DNA of 38,286 nucleotides. Origin: Neolentinus lepideus HHB14362 ss-1. Lineage: Eukaryota; Basidiomycota; Agaricomycetes; Gloeophyllales; Gloeophyllaceae. Below the pieces are notes generated by a model. The model was not told the DNA's origin and made no database searches. It saw only the letters and a program-made list of their open reading frames with translations. This document shows, piece by piece, positions 2,405 to 37,920 of the stretch. Position numbers and translations under genes: made by a program. Position 1 is the first letter of the stretch; the number at the start of each line of letters is the position of its first letter. The stretch lies in assembly GCA_001632425.1 (NCBI GenBank), contig KV425693.1, positions 1 to 38,286 of the forward strand, given 5' to 3'.

Positions 2405-3619
2405 ATGCCCTCCATCGCCGATATGTCGATCATCGAGCTCCGGGCCTCCCAACCGAGGGGCTACGACCCGGCTCAAGAATTATTGTCGGGAATAAAGAGT
2501 ACGAGTATTATGATAGCGACGACGACGACTCAATCGAAGATGTCCCTTGGCCTGGAAGAACGCTATACAAGATGATCAAGTGTATCTCTGCTCCCATCGA
2601 GATGTTCATCAGCAACGGCCCCGACGCGATATATGCTAGACTGATGGATGCGCCACGTCTCTATCCAAGATATAAATAAGAGTGTGTGGGGCTCTAACAT
2701 TGGGCTGTGAATGTGCCCTGGAATTTAATGTACCACGGGTGGGAGGCCTACCGGCCTGCTACACGAGTGGTAGATTTCGTAATGTAAGCACTCAAACAGC
2801 TGCGCTAGTGACGCCAATGACCTAGCTGGATGGCATTCAGTGATTGTAGATATTCATTCTCAGTTCGATTAAAAGAGGCATACTATTTTATCCTAGTGCT
2901 GGCGTACAGCGCCCTTGGCGATGGCGGGAGTCCAGACATGCCTTACTACCCATCATGCCACTTATTTAAGGAGCGCTTCAGCGCATATACGAGGAAGGGT
3001 GTCGGAACATATCCTTTGCGAGGCATTCACGTCCAATATTCAATTTTCTTGTCTGCAAACGCGATATCCTACGTCTAATGTGTTGTGGAGAAGAGGAAGT
3101 ACCGCAACTCATTATGTATGCACGTTCATTGCTCCTCTATCCTTATTATGTGATTAACAATATCCAGTGGGACCACTAATCGCAAGATTGGATGCACGGA
3201 AAATTTTATACAATTATGTCGATTCAATCCTTGGTTTATTGGGACCACGTCTGATATTGAGATGGCAAATCGTGCACTGAATCGACTCCTCCCGAATTTG
3301 AAGCAACATCCGGTCGATGAAACCCACTTCGAATCTGCATTGCGAGACGCAACGGATACTCTATATGAAGACAGGGTGGTAAGCTTGAGACACCGACAGA
3401 CGCAGCTGGAGATACAAGAGCTCATTGAAAATCTGGTGCGTGTCTCAAACCTAATAATGCATCGATCACCTTACCCACTCTCTGATTAATCAGCTATATA
3501 TTGTGCCTTGTGGTCCGACATACAGCATCCGGTGTTCACTTTGGTCTGAGAGGCATTACCGCTTGTATGAAAAATTCGAGAAGGAATGGATGCCACTGAA
3601 TGGAATATGGGTTCTGTGA
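2405..3619 (+). pseudogene. IELRG-family gene, G-type, copy A (frameshifted)
   Basis: It has the family's four-exon plan: exon 1 2405-2783, exon 2 2841-3115, exon 3 3168-3435, exon 4 3494-3619. Introns are 57, 52 and 58 nt with GT-AG ends. Exon 1 starts with MPSIADMSIIEL, then loses one base near 2441 (CGTGGCC has become CGGGCC), which throws the rest out of frame. The middle of exon 1 is shortened around the GNGPDA motif, and exon 2 has further indels and an in-frame TAA in the LIY region. Exons 3 and 4 are open, including NRALNRLLPNLKQHPVDET and LYIVPCGPTYSIRCS, ending at TGA. The function of the family is unknown. The 3' half looks much fresher than the 5' half. Confidence 0.75.
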
Positions 3620-5281
3620 GTGCGGGAAGAGCATTGGCATACGGAGGCGAGTTCATGTTATCCATTACTGCTCCCAGTCTGCCCTTCAAATTTGTATTGC
3701 AAAGCATGACTTCGCTGTTTGTATCGTATGTATCCCTTCGTGGTTTGATTGTACGCAGTGAGGTGGCATTGTCTTGCCCGTTCTCTATGGAAATCTATGT
3801 TTCAGATTGGTACCGAGCATTGAAACGCTGACTCTTCCCTTGGATGCAGGTCTCTCGAATAGGTCTTTGTCGCAGTGTGCAACTTTGAACGTGATACTAG
3901 TTCGAGAGCGTAGAGCGATGAGATTTATTGACCTGGAATATGAAGACCAAGGTGACGCGAATGCTACAAAAGGTGAGAGGGGTTGACGATATATCTGTAT
4001 GACAATGGAGAAGGCAGTGTGTGCCATAGATGTCCTTGGTCGAAGTACTAGGGGGTGCCTTGGACGATGCCATGAACAATAGCTTGCGGGAAACATACAG
4101 TTCATGACAGAATGTCGCTCAGAGCTCTTGAGCATACCATGGCTGGATGTCCCTCACTCATGGATTGGTCATCCCGTCTAGTGCGATCAGAGGTGGAATG
4201 TATGCCACTCGGACTTGGGACGTGATGCGAGTAAGATAAGAGCAGTGCCTAGGAGAGTGCGGTGGAAGTGATTTTCAGGTGTGGAGGGGCATGTCTATTG
4301 ATTCTGATGTGCGTGGAGATCTACAGAACTATCCAGTCCTTAGAGGTGATGGAGAGGCTTGTGCTGGCGAGAGTTGAAGAATATGAATGGCGTTGAGGAT
4401 GTAGTGTGATAATCGCCGAATATTATGTGATTGAGGGTTACCAGCATAATCTGTGAACTTTGCTCGACCTGCTCGACCTGATAAAGACCCCCAACTCCAC
4501 TGTATATTCTCAATATCGCCTTTGAACATCAGTTAAGACAATTATAAGTAAGTACACAAGATTCACTTACCTCAGGAATCTGAACTCTTGGGCAGACAGT
4601 GGCACACCGACTTCATACTCGACAAGAGGTCTTGTCGGACGTGCAAATACGTGTTGATTTTACATTGAAAATCTGGCAGCTGCAGATGATGTAGGAGCTC
4701 GTCACCGGATTTTCAATACCGCCACATATCCAAGGACCATACGGGAAGTAGACATATTTCATTGATGGCCATTGTTCGAAAGCGGGCTCGGTCCCGTGTT
4801 GTGAGAACGTGTGCATTGTAGTCACAGAAGTTGTCATAACAATGAAAAGAAATTTTATAGAAGCTAGATTGCAATGAAAGAACCTTCCATATCGGGCTGC
4901 CCATCGATAGGAAGCTCAGCAGCCCGATATATGTCTACTTTGGGTGTGCGGTCACGATGTTTTGCAAAACTGCAGCTATGGACGTTTGAGTGTAAGTGCA
5001 GCTATGCATATTCTCATAACGAAAAAGATGGCAGGGTTGAATGAGCGGTGCTGTGCATCGCCACTGTGGTTGTGGCGCAGAAACGCGTGACACAGAAGCG
5101 TGACATCTCAAGCGTGCTTCAAGCGAGCACGTGTGCTACTTAGCGTCGCTCAATTAGGTAATTCCGACATGACCGCTTCTCTCGCTTGACCACCAACCAC
5201 ATCGTTGACGGACGCCACACCATATCGAGTGAAACAGAGACATCGTCAAGGATCAAGGTCACACAAGCCACACGATGAAAG
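3620..5281. other. Intergenic stretch between copy A and kinase K1
   Basis: 3620-3757 is the conserved 3' flank also found after copy B (27554-27690) and copy H. Beyond it no gene can be supported. On the minus strand, about 4330-4900, there is one plausible intron (consensus GTAAGTGAAT donor at about 4571, AAAG acceptor near 4520) between short open stretches, one reading EYEVGVPLSAQEFRF. The frames do not join into a protein, so at most this is a decayed unknown gene. 5065-5115 holds the repeated word GCGTGACA. Confidence 0.35.
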
Positions 5282-5289
5282 TATATATA
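5282..5289 (+). promoter_or_regulatory. TATA box of kinase K1
   Basis: TATATATA lies 93 bases before the chosen start codon at 5382. This leaves a short 5' leader and supports that start over upstream in-frame ATGs such as 5205. Confidence 0.5.
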
Positions 5290-5381: not shown

Positions 5382-8013
5382 ATGGGATCAAATATCTTTT
5401 CAACGTCGTTCTCTGCTCCGTCGCGCGATATCACTGGGCTTATGGGTGGAAATCGCCAGGTTACGCACTCAGAACACCGTCTCTACGCAGGGATCGAAGG
5501 CAGCTCTTGCATACACAGTCCTGTGGATATCGACACTTTCTTCACCGAAGTGTTTCATGGTGGACTTAAGTTCTCATCCATCCGCAACCCGAAGCTGTCC
5601 CGGATCCGACGCAATCTGGCCAAAGTGAAGCCTAAGGTGTTAAACGGGAACCTATCAGAGAAGCCGATGTATGATCCATTGGTACGCTTTTCGGATGGTT
5701 ATCTACAAACCTCCCTCACTCTTCTCTTCTCTAGGTTAAAGCGTGCAACAGCATCACAGAGGAATATCCTGGCAAGGCGCTACCTATTTCCTTTCACGAG
5801 TGGGCCGATCGACGACACCAGGAGTCGAACGATCCCAACCGCCGCTTACGTACAATTCCAGATATATCGATTATTCACAGAGGCCATCGCCTTCGGAAGA
5901 ATGTGGAGTACGGAGACCAGTACTGGGGTCGTGGCGTTGGGTTCATTGAAGTGAAAGCGAGGGAAGATCAGGACCCGTTCTACCAGTATGACGGCGCAAA
6001 AAAGCTGAACGAAGAACAGCACAGTAACTGGTGTCAACTTCAAGAGTACGCTGTCATCGCCTTTCTTACTATCCCTCACTCCTACTTGTTGGGTATTGGC
6101 GTCTTTGACGACAAAGCTCGTCTTTACCGGTGGGACCGGTCGTCAGTTTTAATGTCAGCCCCGATAGATTGCAAGACGGACCCGATTCCACTGGCGTACT
6201 TCATTGGGGGCATGGCGCTCTATGAGAACAGTGGCATGGACGATACTATTGATCGGTCAGTCTTCTCTTCTGCCGAGGTGAAACTGATCGAGGAGGAGTA
6301 CGCCCGCGCTGTATCATCAGGAATCCTTCAAAAGTACACAAGCTGTAGACCAGGAGAAACACTGATTGATGAAAGTTCTCGACTCGTAGTCCCGGACAAA
6401 TCTCGCGGGTGGCACACGTACCTCACCTTAGGACGGCCGGTCTTCTGTAGTCCTTCCCATATTGGTCGTGGAACGCGTGTCTGGTTGGCAAAAAGGACGG
6501 GGCGCTCAGCCGAGGGCGAAGACTTAGTCATTATCAAAGACTCATGGCAACCGAGGAATCGCAAGACGGAAGGAGGGATTTATAAGGCCATCGGCGAGAA
6601 TATTTTTGGAATCGCACGTTTCCTATACGACTTCGACGTCTGTCGTCCCAATGCTGATGAGGAACCTCATTCGACGGCGGGCGCAAGGCTGAACAAGTCC
6701 CGGGAGAGGCATTACCTCACAGATCGTGTGCACCATCGGTGTATATTGTCTTCTGTTGGCATTCCACTCTCTCATTTCACTTATACGAGGCAATTGCTTG
6801 AAGTCCTCCGAGATGTTGTCAAGGGTACGTACTTGACTATCTCATTGCTTGTCGGTACTCACACATTCCACAGGGCTTCAAAAGATGTCTGGGAAAAAAA
6901 TACTTCATCGTGACATCAGCACAAACAACATAATGATTAGCGCGAGCCCTGAGAAGGAACACGGAGCGAAGGGGTTTCTCATAGACCCCGAGTTCGCTGT
7001 AACGCCAGATATGGTCGACTTGGAGAAGGAGCTGAAGATGCTGACTGTAAGTCTCAATTTCTTCCTGAAGTTTCTTCACAATAACTCTTTTATTGAAGGG
7101 TACAATGGCGTTTATCTCTATTGATCGTTTAGAGAAACCGGCAGGGGGTCACCAACCATGGCACGACCTGGAGTCCGTCTTTTGGGTTTTACTTCACACC
7201 GTTTTCCGACATGTTCGCTGTTATGTTGTGGAATCGGGCCAGAATAAGCCAGGGTGGGAGTTCTTGGCACCTCTGTTCGACACTTCAGATCCGTCTAGCC
7301 GAAGTGATTTCCTTGTCCGCAAGACACGAAATCTACACGTAGTTGATAACGAGCCCTTAACTATGTGTCTCCATCGGCTAGGCAAACTTGTGTGGAGCCA
7401 GTACTTCGGCCAGTACTTGAATGCTCCGCACCCTTTCCCGGAGGAGCTAAATCAGCTTACGCACGAAAATGTTATCGCCGCATTTGAAGAGGCTATTGAC
7501 TCCGGCGGATGGCCCCAGGATAACGATGCCTCAACTCCGTTCGAGCTTATCCAAAAGCAAAGTCAGCAGGGGAAGGGAGTCATTGACGCTCAACTTCAGC
7601 AGGGCTTCCTTGCAGTACATGGCTATCCTTCCCCTTCTCCTCCTCCATCTCAAGTTCAACAACTCGAGGAAGACCTTTCCAGGGCTGCTGAACAAAATGA
7701 ACTTGCGGAATTGATGCCACCTCCAGAATCTGTTCCCGTCCCAGGACCTTTGCGCTCCAAGCGGAAGCAGCCCACCGACAGTGTGCTACTTCCCGATGCG
7801 CCATCCAGTTCCAAGCGGTCTCGGAGGGACTCCATCGTGACGCGTTCGACCACAGCCAAGAAAACTTCCGAGCGGTGTTCTGGCCGTAGCAAGGCGCGTA
7901 ACTCTGCTGACGACAGTGTGACTGGGACGCACCGACGGTCGGGTGCGCCTGGATCGAAGACTCGATCTACGACGCGTCTTACTCGCTCCATGACTCGTGC
8001 AAGTCGTCCTTGA
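5382..8013 (+). CDS. FunK1-type fungal protein kinase K1 (complete, 4 exons)
   Basis: Spliced model: 5382-5681, 5735-6824, 6874-7046, 7099-8013, encoding 825 residues, with introns of 53, 49 and 52 nt. All joins keep frame and there is no internal stop. FunK1 kinases are a large expanded family in mushroom-forming fungi with presumed Ser/Thr kinase activity. The N-terminal FunK1 region includes LSEKPMYDPL and GVGFIEVKARED. The glycine-loop equivalent is HIGRGTRVW and the ATP-binding Lys is about residue 368 in VIIKDSW. The catalytic loop HRDISTNNIM has Asp about 477. The metal-binding Asp is about 501 in LIDPEFA, so DPE replaces DFG. Then come GTMAFIS and the HDLESVFWVLL helix. Residues from about 690 are a basic, Ser-rich, nuclear-localisation-like tail. 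The start follows a TATA box. The last intron position matches K2. It appears functional; substrate unknown. Confidence 0.85.
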
Positions 8014-12113: not shown

Positions 12114-13578
12114 ATGCTCACTGACGACCTATCTATGATTGAGCTGCGTGGCCCTTTCGTCGAATCACTCCGACCTGGTGGACAAATCACCATTGGGGAC
12201 GCCGAATATGAGTACGCCAACAGTTCTGACGACGAATCGGTAGAGAATCGCCCTGGTGTAGGGAGAACGCTGGACAGGCTTATTTGACACGCCGCTGCGC
12301 CAGTGGGTGTCTTCCTCACCCGGCACTTGCCTCTAAGGCAGTCCTCTGCAGGAGAGATTCGCAATATAGAGCTTCGAAGTGAGAACCTTGAGTGGCTCGG
12401 CCCAGATGGCCGTATCACTATTCAGGGTGAGGAGTATGAATATCTGGACTTTGATGACGACGACTCGGGCGATGAACACGTAGGTCCTGGACGAACCTTG
12501 GGCAAGATGGTGAAGCGCGTCTCTGCCCCGGTAGAGATGTTCATTAGTCTATGCTCGGACATGCTAGGCAACGGTCCAGATGCATTATTTTTCAGGTTCA
12601 TGCACGACATTGGCTCGGGTCTCCGGGAGACGCGCCGCAAGCGCCGTCGACCGCTGTCCTATTGGATGGATCATATGCGAAGCGGATTCTACAGCCTCCG
12701 TTGGTTAGACTCCACCCAGAACCACAAGGCCGATACACGACTGGTGCAGTTCGTCATGTAAGGAATCTATCCATATCCACCTTCTTCCCGTAGACTGAGT
12801 CCATCACTTCCAGTGACCGCCGCTTCCACTTCTCCGTTAGGCTCACTGCAGCGTACTACCTGATCCTAGTGCTGTTATACGGCCTCCCTTCTAACCTCCC
12901 TTACGTTATCCCACATATCCACGACGCGCTAACTCATCTATGCTAGGAAGGGTATCATCGCGGATACCACACAAGCACTTTTCACCTGCTGTGTGCGGTA
13001 GTAACCTACAGAAATGATATCCTGTCCATCTCCACCTGTAAAGACCATGAAGTGCCAACGGTCATTCTGTACGTATGCGGGTTTTCTGTATGTCATGATA
13101 TTGTACTAAGTCCATAATCTACGATATTTATCAGGTTTACTGATCGCGTTGTATCCCCTATGGTAGTCGCCATGCAATTGCATCGACTACGCTGGGATCT
13201 GGACACTTTGAACAGATCTGGCCTCGAGGCGGCATACCGCTCTATGAAGTCACTCCTCCCGAGCTTGAATCGATGTTTACCTGATGAAGCTCAATCCGAG
13301 TCGGCACTACGGAACACAGCGCAAGCCAACTTTGACGGCTTGGAATGGAGGTTCGCGTACAGGCTCAGTGCGATGGAGCGGGAAGAGCTTCTAGAAAGAA
13401 CGGTGCGTGTCTCAAGCTTTCTTATATCATATCAGTTCCATCTACTCACTTTCGATTTCGATAGCAATATATCGTCCCTTGTGGTACTGAATTTGGCGTT
13501 CGATATTGGGTTTTCAACAACGATCTTGCTGAATTCGGCCCAGGGTACGATCTACAAGGGTCACATGGAGAGGGATAA
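12114..13578 (+). pseudogene. IELRG-family gene, F-type, with duplicated N-terminal module
   Basis: This is the most complete F-type copy. Exons: 12114-12758, 12814-13068, 13135-13402 and 13465-13578, with introns of 55, 66 and 62 nt. Exon 1 contains the N-terminal module twice in the same frame. The first is 12114-12287 (SMIELRG...PGGQITIGDAEYEY...GRTLDRLI), ended by TGA 12285-12287. The second is 12350-12540 (IELRSENLEW...GRITIQGEEYEY...KRVSAPVEMF). Only the TGA separates them. Exon 2 (DRRFHFSVRLTAAYYLILVL) has one TAG at 12944-12946, where relatives have a sense codon. Exon 3 is open and exactly 268 nt. Exon 4 begins QYIVPCGTEFGVRYW and ends at TAA 13576-13578. Two in-frame stops make it a probable pseudogene, though the rest of the frame is preserved. 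Function unknown. Confidence 0.7.
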
Positions 13579-13889: not shown

Positions 13890-14950
13890 ATGACGTCCAT
13901 CAGTGATATGTCAATCATCGAGCTCCGTGGCCGCCGAACGGAAGGGCTAGGACCCGGTTCAAGAATCACTATCTGGGACGAGGAGTACGAGTACCTCGAC
14001 AGCGACGACGACGACTCAATCGACGATGCACCTAAGCCTTGCAGAACGCTGGGAGGCTGATAAGCCGTATCTCTACTCCCATCGAGATGTTCATCAGTAC
14101 TTTACTGCTCCGACCTAGCTGTCAACGGACCCGACGCGCTGTATGCTAGGCTCATTATAGCCTCTGACAGTTTGTCATTATCATTTATCATTATGAAAGA
14201 TAAAGCACAGCACGCTGGGCTGGGCATCTGCACTTTCGTCCGAGTGTTGCCACTACCGACATGCTGTGGGACTAATAGATTTCGTAATGTAAGCGGACAA
14301 ACAACTGCTCTAGTACTTGCATCAATGACCTGGCTGAGTGGCATCCAGTGATCATAGATATGTCTTCTCAGTTCGATTAACAGCGGTATACTATCGTTTT
14401 CTAGTGCTGGCGTACAGCGTCCCCTGGCTAACGGACACAGGACATATCATACTACCACACATCATCCCACTTATTTACGACGCCATCCAGCACATATGCG
14501 AGGAAGGGAGTCCGAGTCGGTAAATATGCTTTGCGAGTTATTTGCGTCCGCTATGCGATAATTTTCATTACAAACGCGATATCCTACGTCTAATAGGATG
14601 TGGACTGTGGCGGGGAGGAAGTGCCCGAACTCATCATGTATGCACATTCATTTATCTCATTATGTGATTTACGATATCCAGGTGGGCCAATAATTGTGAT
14701 ATTGGATCTGTAGAAAAAGTGATACAATTACCTCGATCAAGTAGTTCTTGGACCATGGGGAGTATATCTGATCTTGAAATACAAAACCGTGCACTCAATC
14801 GACTCCTACCTAGTTTGACTCAATATCTGGTCGATGAAACTCAATTCAGATCTGAACTACGAAATGCAGCAGGATACTATATATGAACGTTATCAGAAGG
14901 AAATAATGAGATTAACAAAGAGCTTATTGAAAAGCTGGTGGCTTTCCGGG
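13890..14950 (+). pseudogene. IELRG-family gene, G-type, copy E (multiple lesions)
   Basis: It starts MTSISDMSIIELRG with the acidic SDDDDSIDD stretch, then loses frame just before the KRVSAPVEMF segment and stops at TGA 14058-14060. Exon 1 ends at 14288; exon 2 is 14349-14637, with DHRYVFSVRLTAVYY and a TAA at 14521-14523. Exon 3 starts at 14682 and frameshifts before TGA 14884-14886. It then runs to a non-consensus donor near 14940. The fourth exon is not visible. It lies about 310 bases after the F-type gene in the same direction, preserving an F-then-G tandem order also implied by blocks A-C. Confidence 0.65.
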
Positions 14951-15310
14951 ATTTCAAGTTGCTGTCCTAGGCCTCCGGATGTAAGTTGGCCTCGGATCAT
15001 CTTCGATCCAAGGACAGCCCGAGGCTGTAATGACTGTACTCAGTAAATTAGTCCTAAGATAGACTGGTGTGTTTATGTATAACGAGGCGTTAGCTGGACA
15101 TGATCCGGCAATCTTCTAATCTATTGGGACTGTGGCATGTTCTTAAGTGATTCAGAGTGCAAGGAGGGCGGCAGGCTATTACATTATCCCACTGAAAGTA
15201 GAGTAATGACAATTCAAGAGATATATAAACTAGATATGCAAAGCGTGGACACAGACAAGATCACAAATACAATGAACATTCTAACGGAACGAACAAGAAA
15301 AAGAAAACGA
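14951..15310. other. Intergenic gap between copy E and kinase K2
   Basis: No gene or repeat recognised. It contains the region downstream of K2's stop codon (minus strand), so the K2 3' end is expected here. Confidence 0.4.
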
Positions 15311-17666
15311 CTAATTGACATCAGACTTTGCCTGAGGACGGAGACCAGTGCGTCTGTTACCAGGCCTGGACGTGCCTGGAGATGGAGTCTTCCTGAGCTG
15401 GCGGCCGTCACTCTTGCCATCTTGACCCTTGCGGCGGCCTCGGCGAGGACGTTTGCTCCTCGACGAACCATCCGAGTCGCCATCGACTGGGGATGTCGAT
15501 TCCTGGGCGTTGATACGTGTCTTGGCGGCGAGTCGAGAAGAACGACGGGGTTTCTCGCAAATCTCTCGTCCTGCATTGGTCGATGGACTTGGTTCATCTG
15601 TCTGTGTCTGAGCTTGCGCCCCCGTCGTGGGTCGTCTCCTGTTTTCTTGCTCTCCGTCCACTGACAGGATTGTCTGCTTTGCACCAGTGGATGTGAGATT
15701 TCCCCTCGCATCTGCCTTGGCTTTCTTGGAATTCGAGGTGTTCGACTGCATGAGACTGACCGTGCTCCGTTCTAACGCTTGAGACATGAAGGCATTGGTG
15801 ACGACGGCTGGAGACTCCAGCAGCATAAAGGGCACAGCTCCGTCGTGTTCCTCGTCCGGCCACCCCTCAGTATTCAGCGCGTCTTCTATAGCCGATATAA
15901 CTGCAACATGAGTGAGCCTATTGCACGACTGGGACATAAGCTGGCTGAACTCGGCTTCAACCAGCTGGTCCATCTCATTCTGAGATATGACCTTTCCGTC
16001 GAGTCGCGTTGTTACATGAGCAAAGGCTATACCCCGCACGGAGACGTGATGACCCCGCGATGGATAATGAGTAGCGACGAGATCTGCGAACTCCTTGATG
16101 CATTTCGTCAATGGCTCGTTGTTCGAGACTGTCAGAGTATCCACGTGACGAGAGAGGAAGGTTTCTCGATGGGAGAGATCAGCCGTGAATATCAAGGCTA
16201 CCGCCTGGGAGCCACGTAATAGCTTGTCATCTATAGTAATGAAGCAGGAGGTGTGCTTCAGAACGACTTCGACAACGACCCAGAAGAATGATTCAAGGTC
16301 ATGCCACTTGTCATGTTGGACCTTTGCCCGGAAAAGAGCCATGGCAGTATACTGGAATGTTCCCTGAATGTTTCGAGTCAATAAGGCGTGTGCTTATAAA
16401 TGATGCCGCCTTAGACTTACCGTGAGATCGCACAGGAGATCATCGGCGCCAGGAGCCCTAAGGTCTACAGCGTATTCAGGATCAATTATGAATCCTTTAG
16501 CCCCATCCTCCGCTTTGACGTCAGCACTGATCATGATGTTGCTCGCACTGATGTCGCGATGCAACACACCCTGTTCGCACATGTTGTTGTGGCCTATGAT
16601 GGCATCGCGGATGGATTCCAAGAGAATCCTGGTGGAATTGAAGCGCCAAAGGGGTATCCCAATCGACAAGAGAATCACGCGGTGGTGGACCAACTCCTTG
16701 AATCGTTGTCTGTCCTTCTGATTCCCAGCCAGAGACGGAAGGATCCCCGCGATTCCTTGATTGAGGCGGGCACCAGAAGAACGATGGACAGTGTCGTCAG
16801 GACTATCATCGATGTCGTAATCATGTGAGAAGCGAGCCACTCCGAAAGTCTTGGTTCGTCCACGGTATATCGCTCTATAGACGTCACCTTCGGCCCATCG
16901 GTGGCTCTCTCTCCAATAATCTTTGATCACGACCATTGGCGCATCTCCATCGTCCCCATGACATATTTTCGTCGCAATCCAAACACGCGTACCGCGACCA
17001 AAGATGGATTTAGAGCAGAACAATGGTTGCCCTAGCGTAACGTAGGTGTCAGGCATTCCTCCTTCCGTGGAAGACGGAACACTGATACGCATACTTGACT
17101 GCGCCAAGGAACACCCAGGAGGATCACTCTGGTATGATCCTGGCGGAAGTAGATTATCTTCTTGTCCTCTCCTGTAAGCCTTGCTGACCAACTCTCGCTC
17201 AGCTTCGAGGACGGACGCCGTCAGAGTCGCATCAATGCCACCGTTAGCGTACAAAGCCAACCCGATGACAAACTTGAGTAGAGGTTCGGGCTGGGTCTTG
17301 TAGGGAAAGGAACGCGAGGCAATGACGGACGATCTGTCCCAACGAAAAAGACGAGCCATGTCCCCGAATATACCAATAGCAAGCAGGAAGCACCGGGGAA
17401 CAGAACGGAACGCGCTGACCGCATACTCCTGTATCTGGGTCCAGTTGTTGACCTGTTCGGTGTTCATCTTAAGCTTCATTCCCGGATCATAGCCATAGAG
17501 AGGGTCATCCATCACAGTTCTCTTGACTTCGATAAAGGCGATTGATCGTGCCCAATGGCTGTATTCTTCATCCGACTTAAGTATGGCCAAGTCCGGTGCG
17601 ATGCGGTAGCCCTGCTGGGACTCTTTCTGGCGTTCATCTGCGCAGATGTGGATTTGCAAAGGCAGG
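15311..17666 (-). CDS. FunK1-type fungal protein kinase K2 (5' part lost in the assembly gap)
   Basis: The visible exons are 17666-16421 and 16363-15311, joined across a 57 nt GT-AG intron at exactly the position used in K1 (after ...DLT, before GTFQYTAM). No internal stop is seen. Motifs in order: FunK1 N-terminal part (RIAPDLAIL, SIAFIEVKRT), glycine-loop equivalent IFGRGTRVW, ATP-site Lys in VVIKDYW, catalytic loop HRDISASNIM, FIIDPEYA in place of DFG, the KWHDLESFFWVV helix, and a long basic C-terminal tail (RRSSRLAAKTRIN, RSKRPRRGRRKG) suggesting nuclear location. K1 and K3 have an intron just before the catalytic loop; K2 reads straight through. The start codon and N-terminus lie in the gap (17667-18116), so any start drawn beyond it is artificial. 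Probably functional. Confidence 0.8.
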
Positions 17667-18116
17667 NNNNNNNNNNNNNNNNNNNNNNNNNNNNNNNNNN
17701 NNNNNNNNNNNNNNNNNNNNNNNNNNNNNNNNNNNNNNNNNNNNNNNNNNNNNNNNNNNNNNNNNNNNNNNNNNNNNNNNNNNNNNNNNNNNNNNNNNNN
17801 NNNNNNNNNNNNNNNNNNNNNNNNNNNNNNNNNNNNNNNNNNNNNNNNNNNNNNNNNNNNNNNNNNNNNNNNNNNNNNNNNNNNNNNNNNNNNNNNNNNN
17901 NNNNNNNNNNNNNNNNNNNNNNNNNNNNNNNNNNNNNNNNNNNNNNNNNNNNNNNNNNNNNNNNNNNNNNNNNNNNNNNNNNNNNNNNNNNNNNNNNNNN
18001 NNNNNNNNNNNNNNNNNNNNNNNNNNNNNNNNNNNNNNNNNNNNNNNNNNNNNNNNNNNNNNNNNNNNNNNNNNNNNNNNNNNNNNNNNNNNNNNNNNNN
18101 NNNNNNNNNNNNNNNN
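17667..18116. other. Assembly gap (450 N)
   Basis: 450 undefined bases. The length is as given and may be a placeholder. It removes the 5' coding part of K2. Open frames that appear to run through it in any direction are meaningless. Confidence 0.99.
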
Positions 18117-18120
18117 TCAT

Positions 18121-21475: not shown

Positions 21476-21554
21476 CAGAGGCGTGCTGTCACGTCCTCTC
21501 GATCTCGTGGCCCGCGCTCAGTAGGACGCTCTAGAGTGCGTATTTTGCTCGCTC

Positions 21555-21895: not shown

Positions 21896-22414
21896 TATCC
21901 CTGTGGTAGTCGCCATGCAATTGCGTCGACTACGCTCGGATCAAGATACTTTAGACGAATATGGCATCAACGCGGCAGGCCTTTAGATAAAGTCACTCCT
22001 ACCATATCGACACTCACCCGATGAAAATCGAGTCGAGTCGACACTACGAAAAACAGAACAAGCTATAACGGCTTGGAGTGGAGGTTCCCATACAGGCTGA
22101 GTGAGATGGAGCGGGCAGAGCTCGTAGAAAGACTGGTGCGTGTATCAATCTTTACATCATATCAGTTCGATGTGCTCACGTTCGGTTTCGATGACAATAT
22201 ATCGTCCCTTGTGATACAGACTTTGGCGTTCGATGCTGTATACGACGACCTTGCTGGATTAGGCGCTGGGTACGATGTGCAAAGCGGGAATGGAGAGGGA
22301 AGTCGCATGGAAGGAGTCGGGAGTGATCATCGAGTTGCTGTAGCATTAAAGAAATTGTTTGGAAAGGAGTGTTCTGGGATTACCATGGCCCCATTCCCGT
22401 CGATAATAAAATAA
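21896..22414 (+). pseudogene. F-type IELRG-family remnant: exons 3 and 4 (block B)
   Basis: Exon 3 (about 21896-22135) has an in-frame TAG in the ...AGL.IKSLL region but keeps WRFPYRLSEMERAELVERL and a GTGCGT donor. The acceptor of exon 4 has lost its AG (GATGACAATAT instead of GATAGCAATAT). Exon 4 carries an indel, but its 3' half is open to TAA: SGNGEGSRMEGVG, VAVALKKLFGKECSG, ending PSIIK. The related block C remnant preserves GAGIIMVPYSSRIN at the same end, so the ancestral F-type C-terminus was probably longer than in the 12114 copy. Confidence 0.65.
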
Positions 22415-22671
22415 TAGCCCAGGCTATAGTAATTTGGGACTTTCTAAAAGGAAAAACGTGCGCACCTATGATGAATTAAAAAATGCCCACGAAAGACGTC
22501 ATGATGTTGGGGCAACTCCCTCTCGCGCCTGCGCCCGCCCATCAGGTCGTGAGATCATGCTTCCAAGTACAGCGCTCGAGCCAGTCAGTCCATCAACCGC
22601 CAAGGCCAGGTCGAAACGCTCGACGACAGCTGCGAAATCGAGCGTGCGGAATGTTAGATCACCAGGACTTA

Positions 22672-25600
22672 AGATAGGCGACATCCACAGGCATCGACAT
22701 CACGTGCATGTGACATCTTACGTAATAGTCACGCATAACGTGGCAAAAATTGCAAGGATGAAGCCATTTTTTTTCGAAATCACCGGTAAAGGTTCTAGAG
22801 TAGCTTATATTGCTCTGTGTATTATATACATTAGTTATGTCACCTTTGCTGCCTCAAGTTCCTTCAAAATAGACTCTGGAAGGACCCGGTGACCCCGATA
22901 CTTCTTACTTGCCCATGCTGCTTGCGAGCCATTCAATCCCCTCCGGTATGCATCCATAAATCTCTGTGATCTGATGGAGAACTTCCGCATCGATGAGATT
23001 GGCACAGCATTAAGGGCAGCAGTTCCATTAGCCACTAGATCTGCTTCCGCGGAAGATGCTGGGAATTCACGATAGACGCGTTTTGCATATCCCCAGCACT
23101 GCTTGATGAAGTTCAGTTCACAATGAAACTTCGGAAAGAACATGACCTTGAATCCCCGCGCCTCGCAATGCTCCTCGAGAATAGACTTCTGATGGACAAA
23201 ATCAGGTTGTGAATATAGGATACGGCGGCAGCAGCAATCCTTCTGCCCAGGTGGGCATTTGAATTTCATGCATTGAGCCAAAATACGCTGCCGGCGTGGA
23301 TCAGGAATTTTAGCGCCCTTGTCGACACGCTCCTCAATAATCTTTTTCATTCCTTTAAACCAGCCTTTCTCATCATAGAATGACTGGGGTGTGCCGTTGG
23401 GAAAGGTGCCATTCTGCATCTGGATATGCGAGATGCTCCCATCTCCGTGTTTCACTTCACACAGAAAGTTCTTCTCTTTGGGAGGATAGAGAGGCATTTT
23501 GCGAGCTGAAAGAGCATCGGGACGGCGAGCCAGATGTGTGGTGGCATTATCATAGACAAATACATGTTCTTCGTCAGGGTAGTGCTCATTGAGGATGTCC
23601 ATGGCTCTTGTTGCCTGCTCCAGGACATCTTGTGTTGTGAAATACCCGTCTCAGTTCTTACCCGGCTTCCAAGTGACCCGTGCTTCCTGTTTTCTAAATT
23701 TGACATCAGTGTGCCGTCACATAATGAAGTTTGAAGCTCCGATTACGCACCCATCCTTTGAACGCAGCCACCCATAATCTGGTGACACAAAGTCCGCAAA
23801 CATCAGCGACGCGCCTTCACCTTTGGCATACGGCTGAGCTGACTCTCCCGTATATACCCATCATAGCTTTCGGCGATCGTTGGCATAGAAGATTGACTCA
23901 TCGTGCCGCCAAATCACAACTGTCCGCGTGTGCTGGCTCCCTCCAGGCAGTGAAGTCTCGACGCCGTCGCCATCCCAGGTTCTCGTCCATGATTCGAGTT
24001 TTAGCCATGCAGGGAGGAATATCATCTGGCGATACTCTACGACATCCTGTCTCTCATGCCCGTCTTTATACTGTCCTTTGGGCTCACGTTGCCACCGGTA
24101 ACCCATCCTATGCATCCATCTCTGTGCCGTCCTCTCTGAAATCGGCTTTTTGAGATTCAGGCGCTGCTTCATCTCCGGGGTTTCGAGGAAGTGGACGATT
24201 TCCAGGGCACGGACATATTTGCCCTTGCTCTGAAGGTGTAGGTGGATTTCCTGGGCCAAATCTTCATCTTCGAGAATTGACGAGTTGAATTTACCATAGG
24301 TGTGTGTTGGAAGCTTAGTCTCATCTTGCACAAAGTCATGACACCACTCCCGCAGTCGACGCGCAAGCCATTTGCCTTTCCCTGCCGTCCGCGCGACTGC
24401 AACTGAGCACTCCATCCAGTTCACATAGCCGCGGGACTTGTACACCCGCAAGAACATGAGCATAAGCTCGATGCGCCCGTACACGACATGGCCTAGATGC
24501 TGGTAAGCAACGTGTTTGTATCCCCGACCTGTCTTCCGGTGAGGTCGGATGATATTCTCGATTTTCGTGATGCTTTCGTCAATGGCAGAGGAGATCGGAG
24601 GAGGTCGATAGGGCTGTGTTAGGCGTTGGGATTGCGTAGTCGGTGAGTCCGGTGTCAATTGCGATATCTGACGGTCGGTAGGGACTGAATGCGGGATATC
24701 GGGCAGACTTGCAAGGCCGTCCTCTTCGAGGTGAGCAGATTCAGTCCTCTCTGCCGCTGCCTGGAACCCCTGCTCGTCGACTTCAGCACCCTCAAACCAC
24801 GAGCCTTCATCCTCGCTATCCCCTCCATCATCCACCGATTCTCGTGGTTTTTCCTCTGTAATGCTGAGGGACTCTTCGTCAACTGCCTCAAATGCATCCG
24901 GATAACTCGGGTCAGGACTCGGAGTCAGTGCTGCATTGACGTCGATCACTTCATCATCAGGCACTCGTTCCTCTACCTGATCAGCAGCATTCACCGACTT
25001 CCGTCCCTTGATGGGGTACCAGTGTGTGAGTGCCTTGAACCCACTGTCCCGAAGCTTCTTCTTCTCCTCGCGGTCCTTCTGTTTGTGGTGTCTTTCAGTG
25101 CGCGGAGCTTGCTTTGTGCCTTTCAGCTTGTACTGACCTCTCTTTCTGGTTTCGTGATCTGCATTCCAGCGGAACAGTTTCTTCAAGTGCGCCTTGCTGG
25201 TATTCAGCCAATTCATGAGCCCCGACACATCTTCAGTGTCGGGCACATCATTTACTTCTGACAATACACTGAGCTCGGAGGCATTGTCAAGAGTCGGGCA
25301 AGTCTCGTCCTCCCAGAAGTCCTGATCTTGCGTCTGGTGAGTCACATTGGTGCGATATTTCTGTCATTGTCTTTCAGCATCTCACATGGGCCAAACTTTA
25401 GGAATCATTTTGCCTTCTTCACTGAGAATTCACCGAGATTAGCTGCCCTACGCCTTCTCTTGCCTCCCACCATCACTGATGCAGCGCAGAGACACCTCGG
25501 GGATACCCGGACTGTCCAAAAATTACCATATATAGTTATTATGTAATATTACATAAGCGGCAAATTTGGTGGGCCCCGATTTCTCAAACCACCCAATTCG

Positions 25601-25822
25601 ATGAAATAGTGCATTCTGGGATGGAGAGAAAAAAGTGACTTTTTTCTCTAAGAAATCGTCTAATTCAGGAAAACTGCAACCGAGACCCTTAAGTATACAT
25701 CTGGATATATCCTTTGTAGGTCACAGAATTGGCAAAATGATGTTGTTGTCGTGGAGGAATGCTCTGCATTTGACCGTCACAGTGCATCACGTGATGTCGA
25801 TGCCTGTGGATGTCGCCTATCT
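22672..25822 (-). mobile_element. Tc1/mariner-like DDE transposon, 3,151 bp, with perfect TIRs
   Basis: The terminal inverted repeats are 35 bases and perfect: left 22672-22706, starting AGATAGGCGACATCCACA; right 25788-25822, its reverse complement. TA lies on both sides (22670-22671 and 25823-25824). The matching uninterrupted sites in block A (about 1754-1763) and block C (about 30276-30285) read ggacTAgctg or ggagTAgctg, so this is a clean insertion with TA duplication. One extra T on the left flank is the only difference. The single gene inside is a transposase on the minus strand. TA duplication and the DDE motif order place it in the IS630/Tc1/mariner superfamily. Confidence 0.9.
22835..25345 (-). 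pseudogene. DDE transposase (two in-frame stops)
   Basis: Model on the minus strand: exon 25345-23751, a 57 nt intron (23750-23694, GTGCGT...TTTAG), then exon 23693-22835, 818 codons in all. The N-terminal half is charged and low-complexity. A helix-turn-helix-like ISERTAQRWMHRMGYRW follows. The catalytic residues are Asp in HDESIFYANDRR (near 23900), Asp in VYDNATTHLA (near 23550) and Glu in FHCELNFIKQCWGYAKR (near 23115). Between the second Asp and the Glu is a Cys-rich insert (KCPPGQKDCCCRR), possibly metal-binding. TGA at 23863-23861 and TGA at 23653-23651 interrupt an otherwise open frame. Both stand where related proteins as I recall them have Arg, suggesting CGA to TGA changes. The element is probably immobile unless helped in trans. 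Confidence 0.85.
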
Positions 25823-25824
25823 TA

Positions 25825-26208: not shown

Positions 26209-26209
26209 G

Positions 26210-26285: not shown

Positions 26286-27553
26286 ATGAACTCCATCGCC
26301 GATATGTCGATCATCGAGCTCCGTGGCCTCCCAACCGAAGGGCTAGTACCCGGCTCAAGAATCACTGTCGGGAATGAGGAGTATGAGTATCTCGACAGCG
26401 ACGACGAAGACTCTATTGATGATGCACCTGGTCCTGGGAGAACTCTCTACAAGCAAATCAAACGTGTCTCGGCCCCCGTCGAGATGTTCATCAGTTACTG
26501 CTCCGACCTAGCTGGCAACGGCCCCGACGCGCTATTTGAACGGGCGCTAAACGGGGTCCATCGTTCCAGATCATCTTTGGGACATAAACGAAAGCACACT
26601 GGACTCTACTATTGGGCTGGCTTTCCTCACCTGACTGTAATTTATCCCGGATTTCATGACTACCGATGTGCTGCACGACTGATAGATTTTGTAATGTAAG
26701 CGTAAGCACTCAAACAACTGCTCTAGTTGTATCAATGACTTGTCTGAGTGGCATCCAGTGATCGTAGATATGCATTCTCAGTTCGATTAACAGCGGCATA
26801 CTATCTTGTCTTAGTGCCATTGTAAAACGCCCCTTGGCTGGACTCCAAACATCATGATGCCATACTACCCATGATACCACTTATTTATGGAGGGCTTCAG
26901 CGCATATACGAGGAAGGGTGTCGGAACATATCCTTTGCGAGGCATTTACGTCCACTACGCGATTTTCTTCTCGGAAAACGCGATCTCCTACGTCTAATGT
27001 GTTGTGACGACGGGAAAGTGCCGGAACTCATTATGTGTGCGCTTTTATTTACTATCTATCCTTATTCTTTGATTTATGATGTCCAGGTGGTCCACTAATC
27101 GCAAGATTGGATTCGTGGAAAAAGCTATGCAATTACAGCGAATGTATGTTCGGGACGTTCAGAGTATGTCCGACAGTGAGACGTTAGCTCGTGTATTGAA
27201 TCGACTCCTACCGAGCTTGAATCAACATACGGTCGATGAAACACAATTCGAATCTACACTACGACACAGAGTGAAGAAGTTATATCAAGAGATGATGGGT
27301 TCAATGACAGACGAGCAGACGCGGCTGGAGATACAAGAGCTTATTGAAAAGCTGGTGAGTGTCTCAAACCTAATAATGCATCGATCACCTTGCCTATTCT
27401 CAGATAAATCAGCTGTATATTGTCCCTTGTGGTCCAACGTACAGCATCCGGTGCTCATTCTGGTCCGCATGGGATTTGGCCTTTTATCAAAAATTTGAGA
27501 TGAGATTGCTGGACGATGATGATTGGTCACTGGATAGTATAATGGTGGCATGA
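26286..27553 (+). pseudogene. IELRG-family gene, G-type, copy B (one nonsense codon)
   Basis: The best G-type copy. Exons: 26286-26695, 26759-27034, 27087-27354 and 27413-27553, joining in phase to 365 codons (364 residues), with introns of 63, 52 and 58 nt. Parts in order: IADMSIIELRGLPTEGL; PGSRITVGNEEYEYLDSDD with an acidic run; PGPGRTLYKQIKRVSAPVEMF; SYCSDLAGNGPDALF. Exon 2 is hydrophobic and basic (DRRYAFSVRLTAAYY, ISFARHLRPLRDF, GKRDLLRLMC). Exon 3 has VLNRLLPSLNQHTVDETQF and LEIQELIEKL. Exon 4 has LYIVPCGPTYSIRC and an acidic end. The only defect is TAA at 26823-26825, where other copies have TAC. No signal peptide or catalytic motif is recognisable. Function unknown; recently inactivated, unless the stop is a sequencing error. 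Confidence 0.75.
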
Positions 27554-27659: not shown

Positions 27660-29310
27660 CCCCTCGCTATTCGTTTGTACATATATGGATTCAATGGGCC
27701 TAATATCCTACCTCGATACCTCATCGGGATCCTCCCAGAAAACCACGTCAGTACATAGTTAAATTTCGAAGAGATCATCGTCGAGTACATGATAACTCGA
27801 CGGGCGCAAGATAACTGTTGAGCAATGTTCAAGACAAGAACACCAAAATACACACCGGCACATTGACGATCAAGACGAGAGCGACAATTTACAAAGGCGA
27901 AGCCCTGTAATGGACGGTTGAGTGGAAGAGTGCCCATAACAAATCCGGGCGCGTTGCGAACGGTGTTGAATTGAAGGCTCCCGAGAGGATCGGATGATCG
28001 GAGGATAACAGAATAATGTCCGTAGCAAGGAAGAGTGTATAGTGTCTCTCGAGAAGCTCTGAGCGAAGACGAGTGTCGAGAAACAGGAGGAAGCACAAAG
28101 GTGATGCACACAGACCGGGACATGAGTTAGGATGAGACCGTGGACTCGATTGCACGATAGTGATGCATCGACGCCCTGCGACCTTAAATCTTGTCAATTC
28201 ATCCTGGTGTCAAAAAAAATAGGCCATTAAGCTCGTAGCGCCCTGCGCACTGTACGCAGCCGAGGTCTGGTTGCAAGGGAAACAGAGGTTGACTCACTCG
28301 GCTAGACGTATGATGTCAAGGGGTGTTGCTGCGCTAGTTAATGATTGGGAGCGCAGCTTAAGCTTGTGCACGGCACGGCAAACGTAGCACGAAACTGTAA
28401 GGTGCAACGAATATATCAAGGTAATAGTCCGCGCACCCATAATACAGGAAACTATGTCTGGGCGTCTGACTATCACTCGTTTTGTGTCAGCACGCGCTCG
28501 TCAATCGGGTGAGATCGTTACTTCTGACGAGATTGCTCGAGTCGATGAATACAATAACCGCCATGACTGAGTCGCGAGAGACAAGATAATACGAAGATAG
28601 AGTGATTTGGGTTCTTGTGGGGCAGCACTTACGGTGCAGATCGGCTTATCGGACACGCAGTCTCTCGACTCTTTCTGCTCCGGGTGTAGACAGACATCAA
28701 ACTCACCATTTTCGATTGATCTGCGCGCAGTACGGAGATTATCGAGAAGGGGCTGCGCAGGATGGTAAGATAATAAGCATCGCTGTTTAGTACTCACATT
28801 CATAAAACGCGACAGTCTATTTTGTGACATTGTCGACTGACGAAGTGTTGGCGGGTTGTAAGCGTCTCCATATGCGACGATGGTGGGTGAAAATGTTATT
28901 TGACGAGTAGCTAAAAAGGCAGGCCTTCAGGGGTAATATCATGTCCAAGAGAGAACTCATACAGTCGTACTCACCGTGTCCAATGGTCAAGCGTTGAGTG
29001 GGTCGACTTGATAGTCGCCGCACGAGTAAATGACTAACAGTCAGTGCAGAAGCTCCGGAGAAAAGCGATACTAAGTACTTCGGGATCGACATAGGGAGCA
29101 CACTGGCATGTGCACGGACACGGATATTGGCGACGGCGGATGTAGAACTTACGAGACGAGTGAAGTGAACGTGACACCACAGTAGAGACACCAATCTCCC
29201 TGCGTGCGGGCGTAGGCAGTGATACAGCGAATTTCTTATACCGTGTAGCCTGTCGAGTCGTCCAACACATCATTCGAGCATTGAGCATAACGTGTCGACT
29301 AACCGCACGA
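27660..29310 (-). other. Unidentified multi-intron segment U (block C copy)
   Basis: On the minus strand this shows several exon-like stretches bounded by good donors and acceptors: LNARMMCWTTRQATRYKKF to SLHSS|GTAAGT (29148), then RRLSSRPTQRLTIGHG|GTGAGT, RLSRFMN|GTGAGT, LLDNLRTARRSIENG|GTGAGT, and SDKPICT|GTAAGT. Further on come moderately hydrophobic stretches (TITLIYSLHLTVSCYVC, GVYFGVLVLNIAQQL) before NYVLTWFSG (about 27745). A related copy runs at 34410-36760 on the plus strand, and 5' fragments lie in blocks A and B. The hydrophobic 3' half faintly recalls fungal multi-spanning membrane proteins, but no complete reading frame was assembled and the product is not identified. Confidence 0.3.
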
Positions 29311-29486
29311 AAGGAGATAAAACATACTAAAACATACATCAGTCAGAGATTAGCTTAGATAGAGGTAGATGATGCGAACAGTAGACGCAGTTGCTCACGA
29401 AGTGCAATAGAGGCGGATCGTACCGCAGGCATAACCTCTGTAGAAGAGGCTAGTCCGCGAATCAGAGGCAATGATCTCGGTATCCT

Positions 29487-30028
29487 CTATGGTAGTCGTC
29501 ATGCAATTGCATCGACTGCGCTGTGCTCTGTACACTTTAGACAGATCCGACCATGAAGTGGCAGACCTCTCGATGAAATCAATCCTACCAAGATTAAATC
29601 AGCGTTCACCTCATGAAACTCAGTTCGAGTCGGCACTACGAAAAACAGCTCAAGCGAGCTATAGCGGCTTGGGGTGGAAGTTCGCATACAGGCTGAGTGA
29701 GATCGAGCAGGCAGAGCTCGTAGACGGTAGAAAAACTGATAAGGGTATCAAGCTTTCCATAAGACAAGGTTGATACACTCACGCTCGATTTCGACAGCAA
29801 TATACTGTCTGGTAGGAACTTTGGCGTTCGATATTGGGCTGTCGACGACGACCTTCCAGAATTAGGTGCTCGGTACGATTTGGGAGGACATGAAGAGAGA
29901 GGGGCGCTGGGTGATGGCTAGAGGTGACCGTCGAGCAGCCGCAGGACTAAAAATTTGCTTGGAAAGAGGGGTGCTGGAATTATCATGGTCCCGTACTCGT
30001 CCAGAATAAATTGATAGTCCAGGCTATA
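29487..30028 (+). pseudogene. F-type IELRG-family remnant: exons 3 and 4 (block C)
   Basis: Exon 3 (about 29487-29725) reads MVVVMQLHRLRCALYTLDRS to YRLSEIEQAELVD before the donor region is disrupted by inserted bases. Exon 4 starts after CGACAG (29803) with a damaged YIVPCG segment (QYTVW..NFGVRYWAVDDDL). It ends with GAGIIMVPYSSRIN and TGA at about 30012, through frameshifts. Exons 1-2 are absent. U lies immediately upstream in the opposite direction. Confidence 0.65.
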
Positions 30029-30892
30029 GTAGTTAACTAATTCCGGACTTTGTGAGACAAATAATGTGCGCACCTATCACACAAATACCCACGACAGACG
30101 TCGTTAACTCTCTCACACACCTCTGGTATCTCTCGGCCATCAGGTCACAGTATCGTGCCTGATCCGAGGACATCGCTCGAGCCAGGCAGTCCATCGACTG
30201 CAAAAGCCAGGTCGGAACGCTGAACGACAGCTGCGAAATCGAGCATGGAAGGGTATGCGGAATGGTAGATCACCAGGAGTAGCTGCAGCGACTGGATTTC
30301 CAGATCTCTGATATGCGGCCTTGAGACTCCATCGGCACAATCGCGATCAGCAGGATACGTGGGTATTACAGAGCTGATTGAGAGGAATGAAGCCGAAGAG
30401 TGGGAAGGACGTGGTCGTCGTTCTATGGTTATCGAGGCTGATGTTGGAATGGCAAGTGAAAAATAATATTTTACATTGGAACGAGGGATAGCTGAACCTA
30501 GTGAGGACTCCAGAGTCGGCACTGTTACAAAGGGAGAATGGATATACACCATGCACAGTCGCGCTCCCCGGATCCAATGTCCGAGTAGATACCGTTGTCC
30601 TGTAGTCGTCCTAGACAGGCATTGGTTAACGGTCATAGTGCAAGTTCCGGCATAGCCGCGATACCGGTGATATGTATGAGTATATCCAGGGCAACTAGCA
30701 GCGAAACTGGACACATGGAGGAGCTGCTACATATGCAGGATCCCAGATTCATGCACGTTTCGTTTGTGGCGGTGAGTACAGCAGGAAATTTAAATCGGCG
30801 ATTTCCGGAACCATCGCGATTGGCCAGCCACGAGTGATAAGATAAGATCCTATGTTTAGATCGACCGCGCATTTCCTAAATTTAAAAGCTCG
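30029..30892 (+). other. Block C spacer with exon-like stretch
   Basis: Undisturbed version of the spacer that carries the transposon in block B. The empty site GGAGTAGCTG is at about 30276-30285. An open stretch from ITRSSCSDW to LIERNEAEEWEGRG, RRSMVIEADVGM runs to about 30451. It is preceded in the same frame by a stop and a basic PSTAKARSE, AAKSS stretch. It may be a decayed exon or FunK1-like tail. No gene can be assembled. Confidence 0.4.
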
Positions 30893-30973
30893 GTACAAAG
30901 GCTGTACAGACCACTCGTATATAAACCAGTCCACAGACCAGCACCCACACTTCACACCTTTCGTCCTGCCACC
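30893..30973 (+). promoter_or_regulatory. Core promoter of G-type copy C
   Basis: GTACA-AAGGC-TGTAC (30893-30907) and TATATAAA (30918-30925), 49 bases before ATG 30974. Just upstream, six extra bases (TAAATT-like) interrupt the CCTGAAAGCTCGG word conserved in A and B. Confidence 0.6.
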
Positions 30974-31930
30974 ATGCTCTCCATCGCCGATATGTCGATC
31001 ATCGAGCTCCGTGGCCTCCCAACTGAAGGGCTGGGACCCGGCTCACGAATCACCATCGGGAATAAGGAGTACGAGTATTATGATAGTGACGACGATGACT
31101 CTATCGACGATTCACCTGGCCCTGGTAGAACGCTCTACAAGCTAATTAAGCGTGTCTCGGCTCCCGTCGAGATGTTCATCAGTTACTGCTCCGACTTAGC
31201 TGGAACGGCCCCGATGCGGTATTTGAACGGTTTATAGCCAAGAGCCATCGTTCCAGATCATCTTTCGAATATAAACGAAAACACTCCGGCATCTACTATT
31301 GGACTCTAAATCTTCACCCGAATATACCTTGGCTCGATATTCACTACTACCGTCGTGCTGCACGACTGGTAGATTTCGTAATGTAAGCTCTCAAACATAT
31401 GCTCCAGTTGCATCAATGACCTGAATGAATGGACTCCAGTGATAGTAGATATGCCTTCTCAGTTCGATTAACAGCGGCATACTATCTAACCCTAGTGCTG
31501 GCGTACATCTCCTTGTACCACAGACATACCATACTGCGCATGATCCCACTTATTTACGAAGCCCTGGAGCTCATACACGAGGACGGGTGTCGGAAAATAT
31601 CCTTTGCGAGACATTCGCGTCCACTATATGATCTTTTGCTCTGCAAACGCGACATCCTACGTCTAATAGGTTACAGATATGAGGGAGTACCGGAACTCAT
31701 TTTGTATGTGCATTCATTTACCGTCTGTCCTTATTCTGTCCTTTGCGATATTCAGGGGGGCCACTAATCGCAATATTGGATCCGTCACAAAAATAATCCA
31801 ATTAAATCCATTCGATCCTTTTTCCATTGCGAATATGTCTGACTTCGAAGCGGAAAATCGTGCACTGAACCGACTCCTACCGAGTTTGAATCAATATCCT
31901 GTCGATGAGACTCAATTTGAATCTACGAAA
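30974..31930 (+). pseudogene. IELRG-family gene, G-type, copy C (frameshift and 3' truncation)
   Basis: Exon 1 30974-31382, exon 2 31440-31703, exon 3 from 31756. Introns are 57 and 52 nt. The N-terminus is intact (MLSIADMSIIELRG, PGSRITIGNKEYEYYDSDDDD, KRVSAPVEMF, SYCSDL), but one base is lost near 31203 in the GNGPDA motif (GGCAACGG has become GGAACGG), giving a stop at 31236. With that base restored in the comparison, the rest of exon 1 and all of exon 2 would read through. Exon 3 follows the family to ETQFEST (about 31927), then leaves it abruptly into unrelated sequence ending at TAG 31979-31981. Exon 4 is missing, so the copy was cut by a rearrangement. Confidence 0.7.
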
Positions 31931-36560: not shown

Positions 36561-36884
36561 TTCTGTCTCCTGTGCCAAGGATGCGCTCGATATCTTTTGT
36601 TGGCCCAATACTCCTCGATGCCATATGACTTACGTGGGTTCTTTTCATTGTTCTATGAAAGTTGACCACGTACTGACGTGGTTTTCCGGAGGGATCCCGA
36701 TGATGTATATGCATACAATTAGAATATTGTGTCCATTGAGTCGATAGGTGTGCAATCAAACAACGAAGAGCTACATACGATACAAAGAGCGAAATCCTGC
36801 TTTGAAATACAAACTTGAAAGGTAGACTGAGAACCGTAGTGGATATCGCAAAATCGCTTCCGTATGTCGTCCGTCTTCACGCAC

Positions 36885-37920
36885 TCAAAATGCCTTTGTA
36901 TCATCCCCTGACGTCTTATCATCATCCAACCATCTCATCTCGAATTTCCTATGGAAGCCGTAATTCCATGCGGACCGATCTGAGCACCGGATGCTGTAAG
37001 TCGAACCACAAGGGACAGTGTATCCGAGAGTAGGTAAGGTGATCGATGCATTATTATGTTTGAGATGCGCACCAGCTTTTCAATCGGCTCTTGTACCTCC
37101 CGCTGCCTCTGCCGGTGTCTCATTAATTCCACCAAGGATTTATACAGAACATCCGCTCCGATTTGTAGTGCAGATTCGAATTGAGTCTCATCGACAGGAT
37201 ATTCATTCAAACTCGATAGGGGTCGATTAATCGCACGATTCGCCGTTTCAATGTCGGACATATTCGTAATGAACCAAGGATTGAATCGATGTAATTGTAT
37301 CAATTTTTCCAAGCAACCAATATCGCGATTAGTGGCGCACCTAGATATTTTAAATCACAGAATAAGGATAAAGGATCAATAGACATGCATACATAACGAG
37401 TTGCGGTACTTCCGCGTCTCCACAACACATTAGACGTAGGATATCGCGTTTTCCGGGAAAAATATCGCGTAGTGGACGCAAATGCTTCGCAAAGTATGTG
37501 TACTGACACCCTTCCTCGTATATGCGCTCGAGGCCTTCGTAAATAAGTGGGATCATAGGCAGTATAGTATGTTTCTAGCGTTCGCGCGGGAAGATGTACG
37601 TCAGCACTAGAATAAGGTAGTATGCCGCTGTTAATCGAACTGAGAATGCATATCTACGATCACTAGATGCCAACCAGTCACGTCATTGATGCAAATAGAG
37701 CAGTTGTTTGAGATCTTACATTACGAAGTCTATCAGTCGTGCAGCACGTCGGTAGTGGTGAGGATCGACCTACGATACACTCTACGTAAGATTTAGAGCC
37801 CAAAGGGCCTTCGTTTATCTCTTAAAGATGATCTTTAACGACGGCCGTAGTTTATAAACCGTTGAAATACCGCATCGGGGCCGTTGCCAGCTCGGTCGGA
37901 GCGATAACTGATAAACATCT
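36885..37920 (-). pseudogene. IELRG-family gene, G-type, copy H (5' deletion)
   Basis: On the minus strand the promoter word CATGTCCTGAAAGCTCG is fused directly to mid-exon 1 (GAGATGTTTATCAGTTATCGC), so the palindrome, TATA box, ATG and first roughly 75 codons are missing. Exon 1 ends at 37720. Exon 2 is 37662-37393, exon 3 37340-37073 (268 nt), then exon 4 to TGA 36887-36885. Introns 1 and 2 are 57 and 52 nt. An in-frame TAA occurs in the SRSSL region of exon 1 and a TAG in exon 2 (...FPRER). Exon 3 is open (NRAINRPLSSLNEYPVDETQ, LYKSLVELMRHRQRQ). Exon 4 is damaged at its start but keeps VPCGSTYSIRCS and an acidic end. Non-functional. Confidence 0.7.

Follow-up and report, generated by a model that had tools for sequence, protein, structure and literature searches.

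The IELRG genes of Neolentinus lepideus: a divergent, mostly decayed branch of a wider protein family, duplicated together with FunK1 kinase genes

What are a dozen or so related pieces of a gene without any recognisable domain doing beside fungal FunK1 kinase genes, and does their family stand alone? The question is raised by the IELRG genes of the wood-rotting mushroom Neolentinus lepideus HHB14362 ss-1, which were found on contig KV425693.1 (C141). The window analysed here is that entire contig, 38,286 bases long, in a genome of 33.8 Mb and 168 contigs. We find that the IELRG genes are a divergent, fast-evolving branch of a genome-wide multigene family, and not orphans. Probably, in our judgement, this Neolentinus branch was amplified beside FunK1, has mostly decayed, and encodes an adaptor- or receptor-like protein with a docking head and a variable body. 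Copy letters beyond those of the original prediction, "GPGR module" and "wider family" are labels coined in this analysis.

Copies were sought by tblastn with the exon translations of D, F, G and B against the window, together with spliced alignment. The seven full or near-full copies and four 3' remnants that had been reported from the bare sequence were all recovered in place (Table 1), and copy B proved to carry two N-terminal modules (N-modules) in tandem, B0 and then B, in one frame. Similarity of copy D to the other copies is far above chance (best E 5.8e-35 across the genome). Beyond the window, contig C121 holds two copies and one remnant and contig C148 one remnant, and IELRG matches are confined to these three contigs. 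Nine of the ten units (seven window copies, two C121 copies and B's extra module) are broken, D being the exception and the sole intact copy, with a reading frame open throughout; locally, the family thus consists mainly of dead copies around a single intact gene.

Segmental duplications built up the cluster, and FunK1 kinase genes were copied along with it. Besides the unit listed in Table 1, window 1-1758 matches 20841-22669 and 26094-27257 matches 30757-31926, while blocks shared between C141 and C121 are 67-94% identical and include FunK1 genes; these repeat maps indicate that the order FunK1, remnant, IELRG was copied as one segment. The FunK1 segment at 15221-20472, whose blocks are 92.6-94.1% identical to C121:13575-8434, was duplicated more recently, as identity among the IELRG units is roughly 70-78%. 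The expansion had been linked with FunK1 in the original prediction, and this stands as a regional co-duplication but not as a general tie. Among 13 other contigs with wider-family matches, at least four (C34, C41, C13 and C147) also carry FunK1 and nine are without it among the matches listed, so the association belongs to this region, and there is no support for FunK1 as a neighbour that accompanies the wider family in general. Nor are the two homologous, since the FunK1 model PF17667 is absent from D, F exon 1 and G exon 1 (Pfam, no families). FunK1 has at least 116 exon matches genome-wide, a lower bound from a list that scored 107 of 141 candidates. Its model also matched four of 14 control bacterial genomes, in two of them above the cut-off, which advises caution with weak single-exon FunK1 matches. 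FunK1 kinases are treated in PMC6001611.

Selection has acted differently on the N-module and on the rest of the protein. Between related (A-type) copies the N-module is constrained and the remainder is nearer neutral (0.7-1.0). For exon 1 we compared A, C, F, G and C121b (C and G reach only into the module), for exon 2 F, G, H and C121a, and for exon 3 A, F, G, H, C121a and C121b, with the proportion of differing synonymous sites (pS) at 0.26-0.37. With a module border chosen after inspection of pairwise values, omega (nonsynonymous to synonymous change) was 0.27 for the N-module (bootstrap 0.16-0.44), as compared with 0.97 (0.59-1.60) for the rest of exon 1, 0.76 (0.50-1.17) for exon 2 and 0.72 (0.47-1.10) for exon 3. 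When A, F and C121b served for both parts, the module gave 0.30 and the rest of exon 1 gave 0.91, an order reversed in 5 of 2000 bootstraps (0.0025); adding D and B gave 0.24 and 0.54 (0.007). Between D and B alone the values were 0.04 and 0.24, a difference that is not clear (0.22), with synonymous sites saturated.

These values bear on the strongest competing explanation, in which the copies have no present role and were multiplied merely by adjoining FunK1 in an unstable, repeat-rich region, the constraint being left from one older gene. Every copy seen except D is indeed broken, exons 2-3 are near neutral, and segments of FunK1, remnant and IELRG were duplicated jointly, at about 70-94% identity including the spacers. 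However, D is intact, and the module has stayed constrained even though 36% of the synonymous sites differ between the copies, which means that several copies were under selection after duplication. The pattern points to proteins that were made and selected for their heads long after duplication while their bodies drifted. We therefore regard mere passengers as possible but unlikely, and prefer a branch that worked before most of it decayed.

The exon-intron design connects the copies to one another and, as described below, to other genes. The predicted intron phases of 2, 2 and 0, with D's third intron as the exception, hold wherever they can be read. Intron 1 lies in phase 2, 13 residues upstream of a conserved AYY, in seven of the nine modelled copies (A, B, D, F, G, H and C121a), and the other two, C and C121b, are both frame-broken at that place. 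Intron 2 is in phase 2 at the same place in all nine (seven from the window, two from C121), and intron 3 is in phase 0 in A, B and F, where readable, and in phase 2 in D. D's intron 1 is GC-AG exactly where the other copies have GT-AG, and the deposited D protein fits it. Given two deposited proteins as templates, the splice-aware aligner correctly placed their splice sites; extra introns that it placed across frame breaks or lost ends in A, B, G, H and C121a are spurious, the third introns placed in H and C121b are unreliable, and none of these were counted.

Is the family alone, then? It had been proposed as undescribed and lineage-specific. In a set of 5.77 billion sequences, searched with shared 5-residue words required, the only IELRG-branch protein at E <= 1 among 1627 scored candidates was D itself (NEOLEDRAFT_1173652), which agrees with the proposal; its standing alone, however, has to be given up, since the genes belong to a wider family. 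A weak match in the own genome, on C34, is the 558-residue gene NEOLEDRAFT_534743, which has a 68%-identical relative in Heliocybe sulcata (best 7996 candidates scored). Against the genome, NEOLEDRAFT_534743 gave 47 exon matches on 14 contigs including the window; these matches include D (E 1.9e-4) and copy F (E 0.012). Eighteen other loci were spliced (11 near full length, five partial and two fragments), three more lie on C69, and there are about 20 other loci genome-wide. A profile search found at least ten proteins, six from N. lepideus and one each from Gloeophyllum trabeum, H. sulcata, Coniferiporia weirii and "lgn" (P0008); relatives are thus known in Heliocybe, Gloeophyllum and Coniferiporia, while absences elsewhere are weak, as scoring in these protein searches was limited to the 7996 and 7998 candidates with the most words in common. 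Many such proteins seem to exist in polypores.

Three lines of evidence establish the link. Profile-profile comparison of the IELRG branch with the wider family scored 70.1 over 56 N-module columns, where 60 shuffled controls reached at most 21.6 and a reversed control 21.7; exon 2 alone scored 24.6 against a maximum of 14.0 in 40 shuffled controls; and wider-family loci share the place and phase of intron 1, in phase 2 and 11-12 residues upstream of an AYY-type anchor in 13 of 18 (the anchor pattern being loose). Both sides have the N-terminal core S.STVSN.PGPGRTLDK...GRGPNAL; shared features are the GPGRTLD and GxGPxA of the module and a phase-2 intron 1 before the AYY helix. D's introns 2 and 3 are in phase 2 as in P0002, which makes its phases (2, 2, 2) equal to those of that protein. 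A 28-row tree sets the seven IELRG rows apart by a long branch with full support (1.72 changes per column), and among them D splits first under a midpoint root used for drawing only. The wider family, all deposited as hypothetical, includes NEOLEDRAFT_534743 / OE88DRAFT_221586, NEOLEDRAFT_724329, _154352, _1133361 and _819641, and G. trabeum GLOTRDRAFT_96668. Compared with these, D is short, at 310 residues where the fuller N. lepideus models have 505-736; in alignments it is without their Cys residues and C-terminal half, and its branch has a front (IELRG/EYEY) and exons 3-4 that are peculiar to it.

An unrelated orphan family whose GPGR-like motif arose by convergence would account for a strongest similarity limited to about 46-56 residues, and for the lack of profile similarity to the wider family in exon 1 beyond the motif and in exons 3-4, with no signal from exon 3 on. 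Yet exon 2 matches on its own and intron 1 agrees in phase and, within 1-2 residues, in place, so that we hold convergence to be highly improbable. That the IELRG genes are part of a transposable element is the least credible reading of all: they are multi-copy, clustered and on both strands with a DDE_3 transposase in the region, but the copies tested (D, F exon 1 and G exon 1) contain no transposase or element domain, the repeat maps show no common ends around the copies, the blocks are colinear with FunK1 and spacers and differ in extent from copy to copy, matches occupy only three contigs in 33.8 Mb, and the DDE_3 element is a separate insertion, as C121 near 5866 and the sister units show the empty site.

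Known domains were no more forthcoming, in line with the claim that none is recognisable. A match to a described domain or a transposon-encoded protein was looked for in Pfam, which gave no row at E <= 1 for D, F exon 1 or G exon 1, and none at E <= 10 for D; the best rows for eight relatives (E 0.07-0.23) were all under the cut-off. NCBIfam gave no match for seven proteins. The PDB searched by sequence returned no row at E <= 10 for D, and searched with a profile returned two rows, both at chance level (E 0.29 and 1.1). The family is not named in the abstract openings and partial listings covered by our literature search.

Table 1. Positions of IELRG copies, remnants, FunK1 genes and other features in the window.
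Feature	Position	Strand	Remarks
Copy A	2405-3580	+	pseudogene; frame shifted by 1 nt near 2440, exon 1 with two in-frame stops, exon 2 with a frameshift and a stop
B0, extra N-terminal IELRG/GPGR module	12126-12341	+	in frame with B; TGA at 12285-12287
Copy B	12342-13509	+	one in-frame TAG, exon 2; introns 12758-12813, 13069-13134, about 13403-13464
Copy C	13890-14940	+	several stops and frameshifts
Copy F	26286-27550	+	four exons; introns 26696-26758 (phase 2), 27035-27086 (phase 2), 27355-27403 (phase 0); one stop, exon 2
Copy G	30974-31927	+	exon 1 frameshift; 3' end missing
Copy D = NEOLEDRAFT_1173652 (P0001, 310 residues)	33311-32208	-	introns 32898-32842 (GC-AG, phase 2), 32583-32523 (phase 2), 32282-32230 (phase 2)
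Copy H	37921-36903	-	5' end missing; in-frame stops
3' remnant r1, B-type exons 3-4	1036-1380	+	
3' remnant r2	8906-8579	-	
3' remnant r3	21903-22236	+	
3' remnant r4	29489-29837	+	
Duplication unit (r1, spacer, copy A)	702-3336	+	matches 29131-31924 (r4, spacer, copy G), 73%
FunK1 kinase gene (PF17667)	5735-8013	+	window 4641-8357 matches C121:16006-19720, 85%
FunK1 kinase gene	15311-18265	-	interrupted by 450-base run of N (about 17666-18117); blocks alongside are 92.6-94.1% identical to C121
Probable FunK1 gene, broken up	19576-21403	+	PF17667 match only 20328-20462; 3' end from 20841 matches window 1-1758
DNA transposon: DDE_3 transposase and winged-helix open frame	about 22670-25824	-	perfect 31-bp terminal inverted repeats; between r3 and copy F

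Some further observations were made along the way. The sequence TATATAAACC is common to copies A, F and G, 56 bases upstream of the ATG (window 2349, 26230 and 30918), and is a possible core promoter. At the 450-base run of N, the C121 matches resume at both edges (11232 and 10781). The open frame 20399-21400 of the probable third FunK1 gene matches no Pfam family. A search for the telomere repeat (TTAGGG)4 found it on C134 alone. Five loci of the wider family (L040, L044, L045, L046 and L047, on C13, C147 and C69) are single open frames with two tandem GPGR modules, in most cases with an acidic stretch ahead of them (pattern DALDIL..N..DFE.AS), and C26:24000-41000 (L031-L032) holds a cluster of five loci, one of them a fragment, of which C26c and C26e are close relatives. 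C. weirii M0805_009785 (P0013) also has the module twice in tandem, like B0-B of the window, with only its N-terminal part recognisably similar (10% of the query covered).

As for what the proteins may look like, AlphaFold2 predicts an armadillo-like helical solenoid for the relative P0004, and the modelled solenoid starts in the part common to the IELRG branch and the wider family. The likeness to armadillo-repeat proteins such as importin-alpha and beta-catenin lies in this predicted solenoid; it differs in that Foldseek template-modelling (TM) scores are low, no Pfam armadillo model matches D, F exon 1, G exon 1 or the eight relatives, and D is without a confident model. A single-sequence AlphaFold2 run on D was unusable (predicted local distance difference test, pLDDT, 39.9).

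Under the reading we prefer, family proteins would consist of an N-module, in which a Ser/Thr-rich stretch precedes G-P/L-G-R-T-L-D and a helix ending in G-x-G-P-x-A, followed by an armadillo-like helical solenoid. One branch multiplied through segmental and tandem duplications where FunK1 genes are plentiful; most of its copies decayed afterwards, and D survived. Membership in the family, duplication, decay and the constraint on the head are demonstrated here, whereas the solenoid is predicted from the model of a relative and the adaptor role is inferred. The product would most likely work as a non-enzymatic adaptor or receptor-like protein, whose constrained N-module would dock to a fixed partner while the drifting helical body would bind a changing, dispensable or lost ligand. 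By analogy with receptor-like immune or allorecognition families, one could go further and see in the GPGR-module, armadillo-like proteins an Agaricomycete recognition system, with a conserved and sometimes doubled signalling head, a fast-diversifying solenoid and birth-and-death evolution, which here would run in step with the FunK1 kinases as possible partners; we consider this a long shot.

A cluster that looked like an orphan now has its place in a protein family, as yet without a name, that occurs in several brown-rot fungi and related species, and that family gains an anatomy, namely a conserved N-module, a fixed intron and a probable helical solenoid, along with a pattern of selection. 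Should the recognition system prove true, the poorly understood nonself biology of mushrooms would gain one more type of protein; otherwise the locus offers a clear example of birth-and-death evolution next to FunK1.
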